From Promethearchaeota archaeon (lineage in GTDB: Archaea; Asgardarchaeota; Lokiarchaeia; Sigyniarchaeales; SOKP01), in NCBI GenBank assembly GCA_030667705.1, contig DAOUVJ010000004.1, forward strand, positions 1 to 52,204: 52,204 bases of DNA, given 5' to 3'. The notes under the pieces are model-generated. The model made no database searches and had not been told where the DNA came from. It saw only the letters and a list, made by a program, of their open reading frames with translations. Made by a program: the position numbers and the translations under genes. Below, one piece after another: positions 11,977 through 20,327 of the stretch (within the stretch, counting starts at the first letter, position 1; every line of letters begins with the position of its first letter).

Positions 11977-12576
11977 ATGAATGAAATCAGTCCAGAAAAT
12001 GATTTAATAACTCTAATTATTTTAGGGAGAGGAGGTCAGGGTGCAGTTACTGCGTGCGAGATAATAGCGGAAGCTGCGTACATGAGTGGGAACTTTATTG
12101 ACGTACACGCATATCCTTCTTTTGGTGCTGAAAGAAGGGGTGCTCCTGTTCAAGCATATGCAAAATTATCGAGAAAACATAAAATTTGGGATAGAGCACA
12201 AATACAGCATCCTAATATTCTAATTGTTTTTGATGAAACTGTATTGGATTATGAAATCATCTCTTCTCTACACAAAAATGGAATTTTTATTATAAACTCG
12301 GATAAAGAACCGGAATTTTTTTCCAAAAAATTTAATTTCAGTAATGAGACTAAAATTGTTGTAGCGGATATAAGCAAATTAGCTCTCGAGAAAGACTTAA
12401 CGATTGATGGAAATCCTATAATAAACACTCCCATTCTAGGTCTTCTTTCCAAAGCACTTCCCGATTTAAATCTTACAAATTTAAAAAAAGTTGTTCTTAA
12501 TAGATTGGGTGATAAGTTAGGATTACTGAATTATGAGTTGATTGAAGAAGGATATCATTTGGCTAAAATTCTTTGA
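11977..12576 (+). CDS. porC: 2-oxoacid:ferredoxin oxidoreductase, gamma subunit
   Basis: 199 residues. The family signature is clear: ILGRGGQGAVTACEIIAEAA followed by HAYPSFGAERRGAPVQAYAK and a Rossmann-like core. In pyruvate- and related 2-oxoacid:ferredoxin oxidoreductases this subunit closes the CoA-binding part of the enzyme that converts a 2-oxoacid plus CoA to acyl-CoA, CO2 and reduced ferredoxin. The other three subunit genes lie 2.4 kb further on (15013-17525), split off by a histidine kinase on the opposite strand whose 3' end overlaps this gene by 14 bases. Whether the substrate is pyruvate, 2-oxoisovalerate or another acid cannot be decided from the sequence. Confidence 0.92.
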   Translation: MNEISPENDLITLIILGRGGQGAVTACEIIAEAAYMSGNFIDVHAYPSFGAERRGAPVQAYAKLSRKHKIWDRAQIQHPNILIVFDETVLDYEIISSLHKNGIFIINSDKEPEFFSKKFNFSNETKIVVADISKLALEKDLTIDGNPIINTPILGLLSKALPDLNLTNLKKVVLNRLGDKLGLLNYELIEEGYHLAKIL

Positions 12577-14821
12577 ATTTAAAAATTGGTAATCTCACAA
12601 TGAATTTAGCACCTTTATTCCTTCCATCTGACATGGCCTTTATCTCTCCTAAATGCAGGTCGATGATTTCTTTTACAATGAATAATCCTAAACCTGACCC
12701 TTGAATATCCAAGTACTCAAAACCCTCACCGAATCGTTCTATTTTACCAAAACGTGTGAATAATGAGTTCATTTCTTCTTTTGTTAATCCAATCCCCATA
12801 TCTGATACAATAAACTCGACCCAATTATCACTTTTTTTCAAGATAACATTTACTTCTCCATCGGGTGGCGAATTTTTTATTGCATTTGAGAGCAAGTTTA
12901 TAATTACCTGTTCCATCCGAATTCGATCTATTTTTATGTACAAACTATCTGGTATAGAAAGATTCAAGTTAATCTTGCGATTTCTTAATAAGTATGTTAT
13001 TTCACGGCTACATTCCCTAATAATTTCACTCAGGTCCTCTGAATTTATCTCTAGTTCAAATTTTCCATAATCAATTTTCGAGATATCTACTAAGCTATCT
13101 ACAAGATGCTTTAATCGTTTTCCTCCTTTTTCAATAAGTTCTAGAATATCTATTGCTTCAGAGGAAAACTCTTCGTAATATTCGGTCAATAATAATTCGG
13201 TACCTCCGCTTATGGAAACGAGAGGTGTTTTTAATTCATGAGAGACTCGAGAAATTAAATTCTTCCGAATCTTTTCTAATTCCTTTAATTTTCTAATTTC
13301 TTCATTAACTAGTAATTCAGCCTCTTTTTTAGTAGTAATATCTGTAAAAAGAGCTTCCACATAAATTTCCCCTCCAATTTTCATTGTGGAAGCCTGCAAA
13401 TTTACCCATATTAATGTACCATCTTTTTTACGAACTCGAATATCTAATCTATGTAATTTCTCTCCTTTTAAAAATCGCTTGAATAGATCCATAATTTTCA
13501 TGAGGTCAGGGGGAAAAAATAAATCCGTTTCATGAATTTTTTTACCTATCAATCCATCTCTATTATTGTCAAACATGGTTTCTGTTATTGGATTACAATC
13601 TTCTATTATACCTTGAGAATTAATCAATACAACTGAAAATGGAGTATTTTCATATAAATATCGATATTTTCGTTCAGATTCTCGCAATTTTTCACTTAAC
13701 ATGTATTTCTCAGTTATATCTATAAAAGTACCATCAATTCGGATAGGATTTCCCTCAACATCTAAAATTAAGTGAGAATTTAGTTCTACAATAATTTTTT
13801 TTCCAGTACGTGTTACTGCATGGCAAGCATAATTTCGAGAGAAACCGGCTTTAAGTAGATTTTCTTTATATATATTTCTTTGTTCAGGAAATTGCCAAAA
13901 CATGTGCACGTTTTTTCCAATCAAATTTTCCGAGGGATCATATTCCATGATTTTATTATGAGCAGGATTATGATTTAGCATGATTCCATCTAAAGTGACT
14001 TGATAAAACCCCACATCCAAATTATTAATCATCTCTCTATATTTTTCCTCAGATTCTTGAAGACTTAAAATCGCTTTTTTACGTTGGGTAATATCTTCAG
14101 CTTGTTCCACAATTAATTCAGGATTAACATATCCAAAATATGCTAACATGTATTTTTCTTCATCTGTGAGTTCAAATTTGTACATTATTTCTGTGCTAAT
14201 ACTTTCTTTTTTAGCCATGCACTGCCTTAAGTAATTCAAAATGTCAGGACGATCCTCATATATTACAGAAGCTTTAAAACCTATGAAATTTTTGACATAT
14301 TCCTTACTAATTTCTTCCGCTGCTTTATTGAAATCAATTAGAATGAAATCATTTCCTAATTTTTGCCATGTATAAGCGGGAATTGGACCTTCTTTATAAA
14401 TTGTCTTAAACATCTCCTCAGAATCTTTCAGTTTTAACTCTGCAACTTTGCGTTCTGTGACATTTTTACCAATCCCCAATACAGCGTAAATTTTACCATT
14501 TTTTTTAAGCGGAATTCCATAAGTCTCTATAAAAACATAATCTCCGTCTTTTGTTTTAATTTTATATTCGCTCCGTTGAGATTGTCTTCCCGTTTTACGA
14601 ATTTCTTTCGTAAATTTATAGGCTTTTATGAGGTTCTCTCGATCGAGCAAATTTATAAAGGATATATTTGGGATATCCTCACGGTTGAATCCAAGAGTTA
14701 TTAAAGTAATATCATTAGCATCAAGGAAGTTTCCATTAAGATCATTGACATATATTAAGTCTAATGAATATTCAAATAATTCTTTAAATCTCTCCCTAAC
14801 TTCTTCTTTATCATACACCAT
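12563..14821 (-). CDS. Multi-PAS sensor histidine kinase, soluble
   Basis: 752 residues without signal peptide or membrane segments, so a cytoplasmic sensor. Four PAS-type modules are visible, starting about residues 10, 138, 260 and 388; the third contains GFYQVTLDGI and the fourth FSVVLINSQGIIEDCN. A short coiled linker leads to the dimerisation helix with SHELKTP, in which H528 is the phosphoacceptor. The ATPase domain has NLLSNAIKNSPP, DMGIG (674-678) and GSGLGL (708-713). No response regulator gene is adjacent. It is inserted, in the opposite direction, between the gamma and delta genes of the oxidoreductase and overlaps the end of the gamma gene by 14 bases. Its ligand and output are unknown. 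Confidence 0.93.
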   Translation of the reverse strand: MVYDKEEVRERFKELFEYSLDLIYVNDLNGNFLDANDITLITLGFNREDIPNISFINLLDRENLIKAYKFTKEIRKTGRQSQRSEYKIKTKDGDYVFIETYGIPLKKNGKIYAVLGIGKNVTERKVAELKLKDSEEMFKTIYKEGPIPAYTWQKLGNDFILIDFNKAAEEISKEYVKNFIGFKASVIYEDRPDILNYLRQCMAKKESISTEIMYKFELTDEEKYMLAYFGYVNPELIVEQAEDITQRKKAILSLQESEEKYREMINNLDVGFYQVTLDGIMLNHNPAHNKIMEYDPSENLIGKNVHMFWQFPEQRNIYKENLLKAGFSRNYACHAVTRTGKKIIVELNSHLILDVEGNPIRIDGTFIDITEKYMLSEKLRESERKYRYLYENTPFSVVLINSQGIIEDCNPITETMFDNNRDGLIGKKIHETDLFFPPDLMKIMDLFKRFLKGEKLHRLDIRVRKKDGTLIWVNLQASTMKIGGEIYVEALFTDITTKKEAELLVNEEIRKLKELEKIRKNLISRVSHELKTPLVSISGGTELLLTEYYEEFSSEAIDILELIEKGGKRLKHLVDSLVDISKIDYGKFELEINSEDLSEIIRECSREITYLLRNRKINLNLSIPDSLYIKIDRIRMEQVIINLLSNAIKNSPPDGEVNVILKKSDNWVEFIVSDMGIGLTKEEMNSLFTRFGKIERFGEGFEYLDIQGSGLGLFIVKEIIDLHLGEIKAMSDGRNKGAKFIVRLPIFKFKEF

Positions 14822-15012: not shown

Positions 15013-15327
15013 ATGATTGTTGATATTATGACTAACGTTAAAAAAGATTATCAAAAAATTCTTGGATCGGTACAAAAACCAGTAAAAGGCGAAGCGGGAA
15101 GAACTGGTACTTGGAGTTCAAAAAAACCAGTTATAAATTTAGATAAATGCATACCCGTAAAGTCGGGTAAATTCTCTTGTTTTAATTGCTGGCTTTATTG
15201 CCCTGATGCTGTAGTTACACGTACAATTCCCCCCAAGATAGATTTAGAATATTGTAAGGGATGTGGTATTTGTATGGAAGAATGTCCCGTAGAAGCAATT
15301 AGCATGGAAGAGGTGAAAATCGATTGA
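15013..15327 (+). CDS. porD: 2-oxoacid:ferredoxin oxidoreductase, delta (ferredoxin) subunit
   Basis: 104 residues. Two [4Fe-4S] motifs carry electrons from the catalytic core to ferredoxin. The second is canonical: C81-x2-C84-x2-C87-x3-C91-P. The first is stretched, C46-x9-C56-x2-C59-x3-C63-P, with seven extra residues between the first two cysteines (CIPVKSGKFSCFNCWLYC). The N-terminal GRTGTWSSKKPVI is typical for delta subunits. The stop codon TGA overlaps the start of the alpha gene, so translation is probably coupled. A second ATG at 15028 is an alternative start. Confidence 0.9.
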   Translation: MIVDIMTNVKKDYQKILGSVQKPVKGEAGRTGTWSSKKPVINLDKCIPVKSGKFSCFNCWLYCPDAVVTRTIPPKIDLEYCKGCGICMEECPVEAISMEEVKID

Positions 15328-16622
15328 CTTTGATTAACAATGTAGTAGAAGAAACCAAGAAAAAATCAAAGATTTTAACAGGAAATTATGCAGCCGCTCA
15401 TGCATTAAGACAAGTTAAAGTAGGAGTTGTTGCCGCCTATCCAATTACTCCTCAAAGTCCAGTAGTGGAAAAAATCGCAGAATTTATAAATGATGGAAAA
15501 ATGAATGCACGATTCGTAAAAGTAGAATCAGAACACTCTGCTCTCGCAGTTTGTGTTGCCGCTTCTGCAACAGGATCTAGGGTTGGAACTGCTACATCTG
15601 CTCACGGATTAGAATTAATGTATGAAATGTTACCTTGGACTGCAGGAAATAGATTACCAATAATTATAAATTTGGCTACAAGAAGCCTAGGTGCTCCTTG
15701 GTCTGTTTGGACTGACCATTCAGATTTCATTACTATCAGGGATGTTGGTTGGATTCAATTTATGTGTGAAGATAATCAAGAAATTTATGATACTAATATA
15801 CAAGCATTTAAAATTGCCGAAGATCGAAGAGTATACTTACCTGCAATAGTGGCATATGATGGATACATTCTATCACATACAATGATGCCCGTGATTTTAG
15901 AGGATCAATCAGAAATTGATAAATTCTTACCTCCATTAAAACATCATATTAACTTATCTGATGTTTCTCAAGTTAAGGGTATAGATCCTGTCACAACACC
16001 ACATATTCGTGATAGAGGATCTGAAGGAATAGCCCCAGGATATTTTGAATACAGATATGCTCTACAAAAAGCATTAGAAAATTCAATTGAAATAATTCAA
16101 GAAGTCCATGATGATTTTGCAAATAAATTCGGGAGATCATATGGAAATGGATTATTCAAAACAGTTGAATTTGACGATGCAGATATTATTATCTTAGCAA
16201 TGGGTTCTGTTGCTTCACAATCTCGAGTAGTTCTAAAAAAATTAAGAGAAAAAGGTTTGAAAGTAGGACTGGTTAGTTTAAAACTATTTAGACCGTATCC
16301 TGCTAAGCAATTAAGAGAGCTTCTAAAGGACAAAAAAACAATAGTAGTTTTTGATAGAGATATTGGCTATGGATATGAGGGTGTTTTATGCTATGAATTA
16401 AAATCTGCTTTATATGGTTTGAAAGAAAATCCATTTATCAAAGGTTTCATAGTAGGATTAGGTGGGAGAGATATAACTAATGAACAACTTATTGAAGGTG
16501 TCAATAGAACTTTGGATCAAGAAAAAACAGGAGAAATATCTCAAACCACTGAATTTTTAGGGTTAAAGTTGAAAGAACTAAGTGATTATGATGACGCAAC
16601 TTTTTTTGAGGAGGCGAAATAA
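15324..16622 (+). CDS. porA: 2-oxoacid:ferredoxin oxidoreductase, alpha subunit
   Basis: 432 residues. Contains AAYPITPQSPVVEKIAEF, the conserved pyrimidine-domain start of the family, KVESEHSALAVCVAASATGS, and a C-terminal transketolase-C-like domain (AMGSVASQSRVVLKKLREKG). It binds the substrate side of the thiamine diphosphate site together with the beta subunit. No ATG is available; the start is TTG at 15324 (or TTG at 15330), overlapping the delta stop, with a Shine-Dalgarno-like GAGGTG about 8 bases ahead inside the delta gene. Gene order delta-alpha-beta is the usual archaeal one; only gamma is displaced. Confidence 0.93.
   Translation: MTLINNVVEETKKKSKILTGNYAAAHALRQVKVGVVAAYPITPQSPVVEKIAEFINDGKMNARFVKVESEHSALAVCVAASATGSRVGTATSAHGLELMYEMLPWTAGNRLPIIINLATRSLGAPWSVWTDHSDFITIRDVGWIQFMCEDNQEIYDTNIQAFKIAEDRRVYLPAIVAYDGYILSHTMMPVILEDQSEIDKFLPPLKHHINLSDVSQVKGIDPVTTPHIRDRGSEGIAPGYFEYRYALQKALENSIEIIQEVHDDFANKFGRSYGNGLFKTVEFDDADIIILAMGSVASQSRVVLKKLREKGLKVGLVSLKLFRPYPAKQLRELLKDKKTIVVFDRDIGYGYEGVLCYELKSALYGLKENPFIKGFIVGLGGRDITNEQLIEGVNRTLDQEKTGEISQTTEFLGLKLKELSDYDDATFFEEAK
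16608..16614 (+). promoter_or_regulatory. Strong Shine-Dalgarno before the TTG start of the beta subunit
   Basis: GAGGAGG at the end of the alpha gene stands 11 bases before TTG 16626 and 23 before the first ATG (16638). The spacing favours the TTG start. Confidence 0.6.
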
Positions 16623-16625
16623 AAA

Positions 16626-17525
16626 TTGGTAAATATAATGGAGATACCGGAAGAAGAATATATATATCCTGGTACCAGAGCATGTGCTGGATGTTCAATG
16701 GCATTGATTTATAGAATTGCGCTTAAAGCTTTAGGACCTAAAACAATTATTACCGTTCCTGCTAGTTGTTTGACAGTTCTTCACGGAATGCAAGGATTTT
16801 GTACAACTAAAGTTTCAGTGCTGCACACTCCTTTTGCAACTACTGGAGCATCTGCCTCAGGGATTGTTGCATCACTTGAAGATAAGGGGCTTGATCAAGA
16901 TATCAATGTAGTTGCATTTGCAGGTGATGGTGGGACTGTGGATATAGGAATTCAAAGTTTAAGTGGAGCTGTAGAAAGAGGTACAAATTTTATTTATGCG
17001 TGTTATGATAATGAAGCATATATGAACACTGGTGTCCAAAGAAGCGGAAGTACTCCTCCAGGTGCTTTCAGTTCCACCACTCCAGGAGGTAAAATTGGAT
17101 ATAAAAAAAATATGCCTAAAATCATGGAAGCCCATGGTATTCCATATGTAGCTACGGCGATAGCTTCTTATCCTTTAGATATATATGAGAAATTTTCCCG
17201 CGCAAAAAATATATATGGTCCAAAATATATTCATATTCTAACTCCTTGCCCTCCAGGATGGGGATATCTACCCAGTAGATCTATTGAAATAGGTAGATTA
17301 GCAGTTCAAACAGGATTTTGGCCCCTTTATGAAGTCTTTGAAGGTAAATTCACCCTTTCAAGAGATAGTAAGAAATTCCTCGATTCATCCAAACGAAAAC
17401 CAATTGAAGAATATATTACAGTACAAAAACGATTTAAATCTCTCTCTCAAGAACAAATCGAGAATTATAAAGCATATATTACAAATTTATGGACGGAAAT
17501 CGAATCAAGAATAAAAGAAGATTAA
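16626..17525 (+). CDS. porB: 2-oxoacid:ferredoxin oxidoreductase, beta subunit (ThDP-binding)
   Basis: 299 residues. The N-terminal TRACAGCSM (C20, C23) with further cysteines holds the proximal [4Fe-4S] cluster. The thiamine diphosphate motif runs from GDGGTVDIGIQS through CYDNEAYMNTG. Then come SGSTPPG and the family segment ILTPCPPGW. It is the catalytic core subunit with alpha. The TTG start is preferred because of the GAGGAGG ribosome site; MEIPEEEY at 16638 is the alternative. A U-rich tract follows the stop, so the delta-alpha-beta unit probably ends here. Confidence 0.94.
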   Translation: MVNIMEIPEEEYIYPGTRACAGCSMALIYRIALKALGPKTIITVPASCLTVLHGMQGFCTTKVSVLHTPFATTGASASGIVASLEDKGLDQDINVVAFAGDGGTVDIGIQSLSGAVERGTNFIYACYDNEAYMNTGVQRSGSTPPGAFSSTTPGGKIGYKKNMPKIMEAHGIPYVATAIASYPLDIYEKFSRAKNIYGPKYIHILTPCPPGWGYLPSRSIEIGRLAVQTGFWPLYEVFEGKFTLSRDSKKFLDSSKRKPIEEYITVQKRFKSLSQEQIENYKAYITNLWTEIESRIKED

Positions 17526-17556
17526 ATTTTTAAATTTTTTACTTATTTTTATTTGT
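17526..17556 (+). terminator. U-rich terminator-like tract after porB
   Basis: Directly after the stop codon come three T-runs of five to six bases within 31 bases, consistent with archaeal oligo-U termination. Confidence 0.4.
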
Positions 17557-17617
17557 AATTAAACAACTCTTAAAATATATAGTAAAAATTAATAATTAAT
17601 CAGAGTTAACTTACTTA

Positions 17618-18403
17618 ATGCTCAAGACATATATCTTCAATGAAGTTAAGAATAGTTGGATTGAAGAAGAACATGTTTTATTGTTCCACGATTTATGTGT
17701 TTTTCTAGATGTGACTCAAAAGAAAGCCTTTTTATGGAATGGTCCTAAAAGCACGATAGATAAATTAAAAAAAGGAAATGATTCATTGATAAATATATTT
17801 TCAAGTTTTCAAGATTCGGATTTTGAAGTGATTATTTTATCCAAAGATCATCCTTCACATATCAAAAGTAAATTGGATAACATGTTAGAAACAGCAAAAC
17901 ATGAAGAAAACGCAGAGAAATATGTCTTTACTAAATTTATAACAATAAGAATTTATTTAGTAATGAGTCTTATCTCACTTATCTTACCTACATTGATGAT
18001 GTTAAATTTATGGGGATCATTTTTCTGGGCACGAATTGGTTCAAATGTTTCGATATCTTCAATAAACTACATAAATTGGATAAACTTCGCAATAATTATG
18101 GTAAGTTTCACTTTAATCACCTTTATAATCAATATTGGAGTATCTATCTACGAATATGAGATTACGGCCTTAATTATTTCTCTTTCAGGAATAATAATTT
18201 CTATAGGAATGATTGTCTACTTGCAACAAGGGATTTTTCTTTTTTTATTTCAAGTAGGGTCAACAGAATCTCTTTATCTTATTAATTTCGCAGATCTAAT
18301 TAGATTCTTAATAATAGTGACAATTTGTTCATCTATATTTGAGATACCAAACTTAGTAAAACTCAATTCTTTTATCAAAACTTACAAAACTTTTGTTTTC
18401 TAA
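17618..18403 (+). CDS. Membrane protein with N-terminal gelsolin-like domain
   Basis: 261 residues in two parts. Residues about 12-92 follow the gelsolin/severin repeat pattern: a hydrophobic strand, then HDLCVFLD (acidic residue plus strand ending in Asp), KKAFLWNGPKST (strand with aromatic-x-Gly and following turn), an amphipathic helix (about 46-63), and FEVIILSKDHPSHIKSKL as last strand and helix. Residues about 107-137, 152-178, 181-212 and 219-243 are hydrophobic, giving four membrane helices with a short basic C terminus. Gelsolin-type actin regulators are known in Asgard archaea, so a membrane-anchored actin-binding protein is plausible. The gelsolin call is by pattern only; the domain may be another alpha/beta fold. 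Confidence 0.6.
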   Translation: MLKTYIFNEVKNSWIEEEHVLLFHDLCVFLDVTQKKAFLWNGPKSTIDKLKKGNDSLINIFSSFQDSDFEVIILSKDHPSHIKSKLDNMLETAKHEENAEKYVFTKFITIRIYLVMSLISLILPTLMMLNLWGSFFWARIGSNVSISSINYINWINFAIIMVSFTLITFIINIGVSIYEYEITALIISLSGIIISIGMIVYLQQGIFLFLFQVGSTESLYLINFADLIRFLIIVTICSSIFEIPNLVKLNSFIKTYKTFVF

Positions 18404-18417
18404 TATATAATAAGAAG

Positions 18418-18427
18418 TATTTTAAAT
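18418..18427 (+). promoter_or_regulatory. Putative TATA box for the RIO2-like gene
   Basis: TATTTTAAAT preceded by purine-rich AAGAAG lies about 30-38 bases before the ATG at 18456, a distance giving a short leader or none. Confidence 0.4.
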
Positions 18428-18455
18428 CTTTGAATATAAAAAAACGATTAATAAC

Positions 18456-19334
18456 ATGTCCGAAGCGGCCAAAGTGCTTACAGATCTTGAAAAGGAAGAT
18501 CTAAGAATCTTAATGGCAATTGAAATAGGAATGAAACGTTCTGAATATGTCACTGTTGACAACATTAGATTTTACTCCCGTTATAAACTGGAGGAAACCC
18601 TTTTTCGCTTAAAAAATGTACATAAGTATAATCTAATAATAAGAGATTCATCTTCATATAAAATTGGCTATACCCTTAACTCAATTGGTTATGATGTTTT
18701 AGCTCTTCACGCCTTAGTTAAGAAAAAAGTTATCAGTCAATTAGGACCTATTTTAGGTAAAGGAAAAGAATCAGATGTATATAGTTGCCTGGATGATGAT
18801 GAAAATATTCTTGCTTTAAAAATATATAGAATGGGACGTACTAGTTTTAAAAGGATAAAGCAATTAAGGGATTTAGTAGGGAAACGGGGTCATTCTTCCT
18901 GGTTATATATTAATAGATTAGCAGCAAGAAGAGAATTTGAAGCACTAACTGAAATTTTTAAATTAAAATTAGATACGCCGAAGCCAATTGCTTACAACCG
19001 ACACATGATCGTCATGTCTTACCTGAAGGGAAAAGAATTAGTATATCATAAAGATCTCAATAAACCCGAAAAGTTATTTAATAAAATAATAAAACAGATG
19101 AAAATAATATATCAAGAAGCTAAGATAGTTCATGGTGATTTAGGCGAGTTTAATATAGTAGTCGATGAAAAAGGACATATATTGATTATCGATTGGCTAC
19201 AATGGGTCTCTATTGACCACCCAAATGCACGATCCCTACTCGAACGAGACATACTAAACTTGTCGAAATATTTCAATAAGAAATTTAATATCCAGAGCAA
19301 TGTTCAAGATATAATGACTTCTTTCTTCAATTAA
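18456..19334 (+). CDS. rio2: RIO2-type atypical protein kinase/ATPase
   Basis: 292 residues. The N-terminal winged helix (about 1-90), which defines the RIO2 subgroup, precedes a RIO kinase domain with the nucleotide loop GKGKESDVY (101-109), the lysine strand LALKIY (K122), catalytic HGDLGEFNIVV (226-236) and the metal aspartate in IIDW (D246). The stretch SIDHPNA with the later RD pair is typical of RIO2. After the metal Asp the protein has WLQW where most RIO2 proteins have FPQ. RIO2 helps final maturation of the small ribosomal subunit. A TATA box lies close upstream; the next gene is convergent, 15 bases away. Confidence 0.9.
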   Translation: MSEAAKVLTDLEKEDLRILMAIEIGMKRSEYVTVDNIRFYSRYKLEETLFRLKNVHKYNLIIRDSSSYKIGYTLNSIGYDVLALHALVKKKVISQLGPILGKGKESDVYSCLDDDENILALKIYRMGRTSFKRIKQLRDLVGKRGHSSWLYINRLAARREFEALTEIFKLKLDTPKPIAYNRHMIVMSYLKGKELVYHKDLNKPEKLFNKIIKQMKIIYQEAKIVHGDLGEFNIVVDEKGHILIIDWLQWVSIDHPNARSLLERDILNLSKYFNKKFNIQSNVQDIMTSFFN

Positions 19335-19349
19335 AAAGGGCCTTTTATT

Positions 19350-19943
19350 TTACATTAATTTTCCTTGAATAATGGAGTCTTCTAACTCCTCATTATTAAT
19401 CATCATAAAATCATTGAAATAGGGTTTAAATTTAGATATCAACTTTTTCAATCGAGTATCTTTTTTTAGTATCGATAAATAAAATTCCGTTCCTCGTTTA
19501 CTTATCCTAATCAACTCTGAAACTCCTTGGAAAATATCTGGTAAATTCTGTAAAGAAGTTATTGAAACGATAAGATCAAAAAAATTTCCTCTAAATGGTA
19601 GGTTTTCCATATCTGATAAAATCAAACTTATGTGGGCTTTCTCTTCCTTAAATTCTTCTTTAATTTTTATTTTTTTTAACATGTTTAAAGATATATCAAG
19701 ACAGATAAAATTAGATCGAGCACATTTTGATTTAGAAACGTGTTTTGAAAGATGGGTATATAAAAGCCCAGTGCCACAACCTGCATCTAAAATTAATTTT
19801 GATTGAAAATTAGCACCTTTAAAGGCGAGCTCGTATTTTTGGAGCTGGATGGATCTATATCTATCATCATAATATTCAAACGAGGAGTTATACTTTTCAA
19901 TTATGTTTTTTTTTTTAATTAATTTTCTATGATGATCTCTCAA
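19350..19943 (-). CDS. SAM-dependent class I methyltransferase
   Basis: 197 residues. Motif I is LILDAGCGTGLLYTHLSKH, followed by the acidic strand FICLDISLNML, then SDMENLPFRGNFFDLIVSI (motif IV region) and a post-motif helix, so a UbiE/type-11-like fold. The substrate is not readable. The end of the protein lacks an obvious target-recognition extension. It sits alone on the minus strand between the RIO2 gene and the Sm-like gene, which is divergent. Confidence 0.85.
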   Translation of the reverse strand: MRDHHRKLIKKKNIIEKYNSSFEYYDDRYRSIQLQKYELAFKGANFQSKLILDAGCGTGLLYTHLSKHVSKSKCARSNFICLDISLNMLKKIKIKEEFKEEKAHISLILSDMENLPFRGNFFDLIVSITSLQNLPDIFQGVSELIRISKRGTEFYLSILKKDTRLKKLISKFKPYFNDFMMINNEELEDSIIQGKLM

Positions 19944-20066
19944 GCAAAAATCCCATTTAGTGTTAAATTTAAGCGATGATAAGGTTTTAATTCAAAAAAG
20001 TTTTTCTTTAAAATATTCTTTTAATATATTATAATAGATTTGTTTTTGAAAAGAGATTGAAAAAAA

Positions 20067-20327
20067 ATGGAGAGAAATAACACTGGGCAACGGTCGAAAA
20101 ATCCGTTACATATTCTTCAAGCTGCTCAAAATTCTGAAATAATACTCAGATTGAAAGATGGAACTGAATACAAGGGAATGTTAAAAGAAATCGACGCTTA
20201 TATGAATATGATTATCGAAAATTGCACCGAGGTCATGGATGGCAGCCCTGTAGCAAAATACAACGAGATTTTCATCAGAGGTAATAATCTCTTGTTTATA
20301 AAGCCAGATGCTTCACAATTAATGTAA
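20067..20327 (+). CDS. Sm-like (LSm) RNA-binding protein
   Basis: 86 residues. The Sm1 motif ILRLKDGTEYKGMLKEIDAYMNMI and Sm2 motif IFIRGNNLLFIKP are complete, with an N-terminal helix (NPLHILQAAQ). Archaeal Sm proteins assemble as heptameric rings that bind U-rich RNA and act in RNA processing and turnover. The motif order and length are standard. It is followed after 11 bases by an AIG2-like gene on the same strand, so the two are probably cotranscribed. Confidence 0.93.
   Translation: MERNNTGQRSKNPLHILQAAQNSEIILRLKDGTEYKGMLKEIDAYMNMIIENCTEVMDGSPVAKYNEIFIRGNNLLFIKPDASQLM

Follow-up and report, generated by a model that had tools for sequence, protein, structure and literature searches.

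Gelsolins and actin in Lokiarchaea

In Lokiarchaeal cells, actin filaments follow the periphery and extend through thin protrusions, according to the available sections of PMC9834061, which also give eight gelsolin-like proteins for 'Ca. L. ossiferum'. The Loki 2DGel (PDB 7whg) has two gelsolin domains, a linker, and a Zn ribbon, and is soluble and strictly calcium-controlled; the sections of PMC9433394 that describe it count one or two 2DGels, two to four ProGels, and two or three '1DGelXs' for Loki. In the excerpts of the literature examined, no protein is named that ties Lokiarchaeal actin to the membrane. Here, we analyze a Lokiarchaeal gene whose product, by sequence profiles and hydropathy, joins one gelsolin domain to four predicted membrane helices, and to which we refer as TM-gelsolin.

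The TM-gelsolin gene and its locus

The gene lies in a stretch of 52,204 nucleotides, called the window below. It is an open reading frame on the forward strand that begins with ATG, and it is a real gene:

17618..18403, + strand: TM-gelsolin gene, 261 aa, stop included; relatives in 52/65 genomes of the family; under purifying selection

Between close relatives, dN/dS was mostly 0.1-0.25 in the N-terminal domain and mostly 0.2-0.5 in the membrane part, and the N-terminal domain was the more constrained of the two in most pairs. The motifs that the first-pass annotation had quoted from this reading frame are all present: HDLCVFLD (residues 24-31), KKAFLWNGPKST (35-46), and FEVIILSKDHPSHI (69-82).

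Gene order around TM-gelsolin is strongly kept in the family. In the window (15013-20327), it runs ferredoxin, porA, porB, TM-gelsolin, RIO kinase, methyltransferase (opposite strand), and Lsm; in all but a few family relatives, TM-gelsolin likewise sits between porB and a RIO-kinase-like gene, with the methyltransferase and Lsm genes following. In a neighbouring family (f3), two members also carry TM-gelsolin near the por/RIO kinase/methyltransferase/Lsm set. These neighbours are metabolic or housekeeping genes, none of them cytoskeletal, and the TM-gelsolin sequence is far less conserved than those of its immediate neighbours porB and RIO kinase. Adjoining the por genes is a gene for a 752-aa multi-PAS histidine kinase (12563-14821, - strand), which has relatives at the same place in many related genomes.

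Homology of the N-terminal domain

17618..17893, + strand: single gelsolin domain, residues 1-92, ProGel-like, by PDB profile search, PF00626 matches in 30/50 members, and hhalign

When searched alone, the window protein had no Pfam match at E<10 and a single, weak PDB match (E 0.61), to an Asgard gelsolin chain. It departs from its family at the core positions V32, K36, A37, I47, and N54, a divergence that probably explains the failure of single-sequence searches. We therefore rely on a family profile of residues 1-95 built from 50 members, which was searched against 177,635 distinct PDB sequences. The profile matched villin (2.9e-11), plasma gelsolins (1e-9 to 3e-8), CapG (1.5e-5), and adseverin (9.9e-5), all multi-repeat chains whose E-values are inflated by repeat summation, so that the fairer figure is the 1.7e-5 obtained for the best single-domain chain, the Asgard protein 7c2f. 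The Loki 2DGel followed at 0.001. The PDB matches of the profile were almost exclusively gelsolins, the first non-gelsolin being RbcX at 0.039. Searches with single members gave matches to RbcX, Prominin, PspC, and others, which we discarded as isolated chance matches.

Two further comparisons agree with the PDB search. The Pfam gelsolin family PF00626 was matched individually by 30 of the 50 members (best E 0.00068). Aligned by hhalign to 26 diverse soluble Asgard gelsolin domains, the family reached a probability of 97% and a score of 60.6; in 200 column-permuted controls the mean score was 11.0 and the maximum 23, so that none attained even 40% of the observed score, and the reversed alignment scored 13.7. 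An earlier hhalign run against a shallow 2DGel set had given a probability of 26%. Part of the diverse soluble set was found with the TM-gelsolin family's own profile, which gives the PDB and Pfam searches greater independence as evidence. Soluble single-domain gelsolins were likewise retrieved by the profile from genomes across the phylum; those of about 100 aa group with 7c2f (5.7e-32, tested on one member).

Altogether, sequence profiles support the view that residues 1-92 of the window protein form one gelsolin domain. The first-pass annotation had proposed a gelsolin domain from pattern, naming the lack of a gelsolin profile match even with a family alignment as the result that would speak against it; with the family alignment, such matches were found. 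It had placed the domain at about residues 12-92. The C-terminal limit near 92 stands, and the start has to be moved from 12 to about residue 1-2, because conservation extends over the strand LKTYIF and the invariant W14-x-E-E. AlphaFold models of the full protein and of residues 1-100, made from a two-sequence alignment of the window protein and a relative about 90% identical to it (L035), had pLDDT values of 43 and 48.

Conserved residues and calcium sites

Across the 50-member alignment, W14, D25, W40, G42, and P79 are invariant, and the WxG signature of strand C (W40 and G42) is therefore present throughout. Three sites bear on how the domain may work:

17657..17668, + strand: W14-x-E16-E17 motif, typical of the family (W 50/50, E 49/50, E 49/50)
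17735..17749, + strand: WxGPK, residues 40-44, with the gelsolin signature WxG (W40 and G42 50/50; K44 45/50)
17762..17764, + strand: residue 49 (W+9), the Type II calcium Glu position of calcium-binding gelsolins (Lys/Arg 48/50)

Calcium-binding gelsolins build their Type II site from an Asp that precedes strand B and a Glu at W+9, counted from the WxG Trp; we take the human gelsolin counterparts to be D66 and E97. The 2DGel encoded in the same genome as TM-gelsolin has GD and SVDEK at these positions. In the TM-gelsolin family the site is incomplete, with D25 in all 50 members and Lys (26) or Arg (22) at W+9. In 47 of the 50 sequences, the Type I Asp position, placed at residue 61 (W+21) by sequence alignment to the own-genome 2DGel, holds one of I, M, L, V, Q, or T. 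The long helix, which was aligned from sequence only, varies at several positions (e.g., 55, 58, 59, and 61). The consistent replacement of Glu by Lys or Arg argues against calcium switching, and calcium control of the 2DGel kind appears unlikely for TM-gelsolin.

Predicted membrane part and topology

By hydropathy, hydrophobic segments of about 19 residues follow past residue ~105 in every member, four in 46 of 50 and five in the other four, with none in residues 1-94. At least four segments in 50/50 members bear out the four-helix membrane part proposed in the first-pass annotation. In the window protein, this part comprises:

17951..18013, + strand: predicted membrane helix 1, residues 112-132 (hydropathy, charge; basic residues on its N side)
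18080..18145, + strand: predicted membrane helix 2, residues 155-176 (hydropathy, charge)
18161..18223, + strand: predicted membrane helix 3, residues 182-202 (hydropathy, charge)
18218..18265, + strand: YLQQGIFLFLFQVGST, residues 201-216, end of helix 3 and next outer loop, among the most conserved stretches
18284..18346, + strand: predicted membrane helix 4, residues 223-243 (hydropathy, charge)
18347..18400, + strand: short basic C-terminal tail, residues 244-261, predicted cytoplasmic (K+R 3.46 vs D+E 0.24, means)

Ahead of helix 1, K+R outnumber D+E (4.1 vs 2.1), while they are scarce in outer loop 1 (0.8 vs 1.3) and outer loop 3 (0.1 vs 0.9). From this distribution of basic residues, frequent ahead of helix 1 and in the tail but scarce in the outer loops, we infer a cytoplasmic N- and C-terminus and two loops on the outside, which would put the gelsolin domain where actin could be met. 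Residues 201-220 form the lowest-entropy 20-residue block of the whole protein (mean 0.94 bits; consensus YLxQGIFLFLFQxGST), within which F209 is invariant. Nothing in Pfam, NCBIfam, or PDB convincingly resembles the membrane part in searches with the 50 members or the family profile; a full-length profile searched against PDB gave a rhodopsin at 1.8, which is chance level.

Distribution and descent of the fusion

The relatives in the 52 family genomes are nearly all full length, one per genome, and share 34-89% identity; the closest named relative of the window protein is from Candidatus Lokiarchaeota archaeon bin22, which makes it very probable that the window comes from a Lokiarchaeon. The same architecture, at full or near full length, occurs in 11 of the 14 other genomes of the order, across three further families. 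The membrane part is homologous in families f2 and f3 (8.7e-6 to 4e-19) and weakly so in f4 (0.002-0.2), which makes common descent of the fusion clear in three of the four families and likely in the fourth. The first-pass annotation had suggested looking for the same fusion in other Asgard genomes, and these Lokiarchaeal genomes contain it. A search with the family profile found no convincing TM-gelsolin among 149 genomes outside the order, and a scan of viral contigs found no relatives. The main gene is absent from some near-complete family genomes (G009, G010, G014, G024, and G028), several of which (e.g., G009, G010, and G014) have estimated completeness of 94-99%; TM-gelsolin is thus not essential throughout the family and can be lost.

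The genome that carries the window also encodes a second, divergent four-helix gelsolin-like protein (G000:C86:8065-8850; L093:4066-4851, + strand). Such a copy was found in 19 of 65 family genomes, in three of these as fragments only, and in most members it has lost the W of WxG and kept the membrane part.

Other gelsolin-containing proteins were noted within the order. Family f4 includes long proteins of up to 802 aa (L103:246-2651, - strand; L109:2207-3703, + strand; L110:3-1400, - strand; L111:2878-3612, + strand), with one N-terminal gelsolin domain followed by coiled coil or low-complexity sequence and, in one case, a proline-rich tail. In L103, such a gene and TM-gelsolin share a strand and are about 1.5 kb apart. 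In a class other than that of the window, a reading frame joining a gelsolin-TM1 piece to an EamA-like transporter (L099:1829-3118, - strand; genome G107) was rejected as a probable chimeric contig, on the grounds that it has no normal N-terminus and lies beside SEC-C-type and other unrelated ORFs.

Actin and soluble gelsolins in the same genome

TM-gelsolin occurs together with four genes of the actin family, of which two encode strong actins, and with three soluble gelsolin genes, which comprise one 2DGel and two one-domain proteins. The latter, of 199 aa (L003:1144-1743, - strand) and 260 aa (L004:1435-2217, + strand), have a common C-terminal region (SS.TYDELCW and SS.TYEELCW) and a helical, non-membrane C-terminus, and are good candidates for the '1DGelX' class.

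Proposed function and alternative explanations

We propose, with a probability of roughly 0.6, that TM-gelsolin is a calcium-independent, ProGel-like, actin-binding gelsolin domain tethered to the membrane by four helices. The domain and the hydrophobic segments have been retained together, as a single unit, in most of the order. With the calcium sites of 2DGels not intact, the domain would be constitutive rather than calcium-switched. By analogy with the soluble single-domain Asgard ProGel, it may bind Lokiactin. Being fixed in the membrane, it would not act as a diffusing severing factor, and it could hold actin at the cell envelope, either as a filament anchor or as a local modulator of filament ends. 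The conserved motif that closes helix 3 probably serves in oligomerisation or in contacts with a lipid or a partner protein.

Gelsolin folds have roles unrelated to actin as well, in Sec23/24. The main rival to our proposal is a gelsolin fold that has lost actin binding and provides a membrane protein with a scaffold or protein-interaction module, as in COPII Sec23/24. We consider this rather unlikely. Such a module would fit the altered calcium-site residues, the variable long-helix positions, the non-cytoskeletal neighbours, and the divergent second copy, which in most members has shed the WxG signature and retains its membrane part. It fits less well with the conservation of W40, G42, and K44 in 45-50 of 50 members, or with an N-terminal domain that is in most pairs under stronger constraint than the helices; moreover, among solved single-domain structures the nearest relative is 7c2f, an Asgard gelsolin, and the organism has actins and other gelsolins.

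Because the most conserved block of the protein lies in the membrane part, and this block has few charges but conserved Q, G, S, and T, the protein might instead be a membrane transporter, channel, or sensor in which the helix 3 motif is the working part and the gelsolin domain senses cytoskeletal state or calcium. We regard this as improbable, since none of the 50 members convincingly matched a membrane-transport family, the full profile yielded only the chance-level rhodopsin in PDB, and four short helices almost without conserved intramembrane charges would be unusual for a transporter. Finally, a short beta-hairpin carrying WxG could look like gelsolin by chance, as might be argued from the failed single-sequence Pfam search, the weak PDB match (yet to an Asgard gelsolin), and the very low confidence of the AlphaFold models. 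The PDB profile search, PF00626, the phylum-wide retrieval, and hhalign all indicate gelsolin, and the profile evidence strongly disfavours chance, which leaves this explanation a very slim prospect.

Returning to a membrane-tethered, actin-binding gelsolin, we would give somewhat less than even odds to a fuller version, in which TM-gelsolin is a dedicated prokaryotic actin-membrane linker, constitutive and calcium-independent, that arose by a single fusion of ProGel-type and four-helix parts in the order's ancestor, was later duplicated, and is unrelated to eukaryotic linkers. A conserved membrane-fixed gelsolin domain is a concrete candidate for the tie between Lokiarchaeal actin and the membrane, and TM-gelsolin a plausible physical link from the actin skeleton to the cell membrane in the archaea most closely related to eukaryotes. 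If our reading is true, TM-gelsolin would in addition be a gelsolin that has escaped calcium control.

Comparison with known gelsolins

TM-gelsolin belongs to a known domain family, and its membrane-anchored form is apparently undescribed in the portions of the literature searched. We found no mention of a transmembrane gelsolin in the available parts of the Asgard gelsolin and cytoskeleton literature, including PMC9433394 and PMC9834061, a set that stops short of the defining 2020 PNAS paper. The nearest label is the Asgard '1DGelX', which we read as one gelsolin domain plus an extension and which is represented by its label and counts in the sections of PMC9433394 available; a prior description of TM-gelsolin under this label is possible.

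Both the Loki 2DGel and TM-gelsolin have WxG and the Type II Asp position in their gelsolin domains, and the genome that carries the window also encodes a 2DGel of this type. The window protein differs from the Loki 2DGel in being one-domain and, by prediction, membrane-bound, and in having Lys or Arg at the Type II Glu position. Eukaryotic gelsolin, villin, CapG, and adseverin share the domain family by profile, but they have three to six repeats, are soluble or peripheral, and are calcium-regulated; to our knowledge, no eukaryotic gelsolin-family protein has four membrane helices.

The closest comparison is with 7c2f, deposited as 'Gelsolin-like domain-containing protein', which we take to be the Thorarchaeal ProGel, a single-domain gelsolin/cofilin-like protein. 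Both have a single gelsolin domain of about 95 aa, and they align without gaps from strand B, across WxG, as far as the glycine at W+13. The soluble ProGel has nothing beyond the domain, whereas the window protein adds the conserved W-x-E-E ahead of strand B, a C-terminal helix led by P79, and the four predicted membrane helices. Thus, the window protein is ProGel-like in its domain but is not a ProGel, as it continues into four hydrophobic segments.
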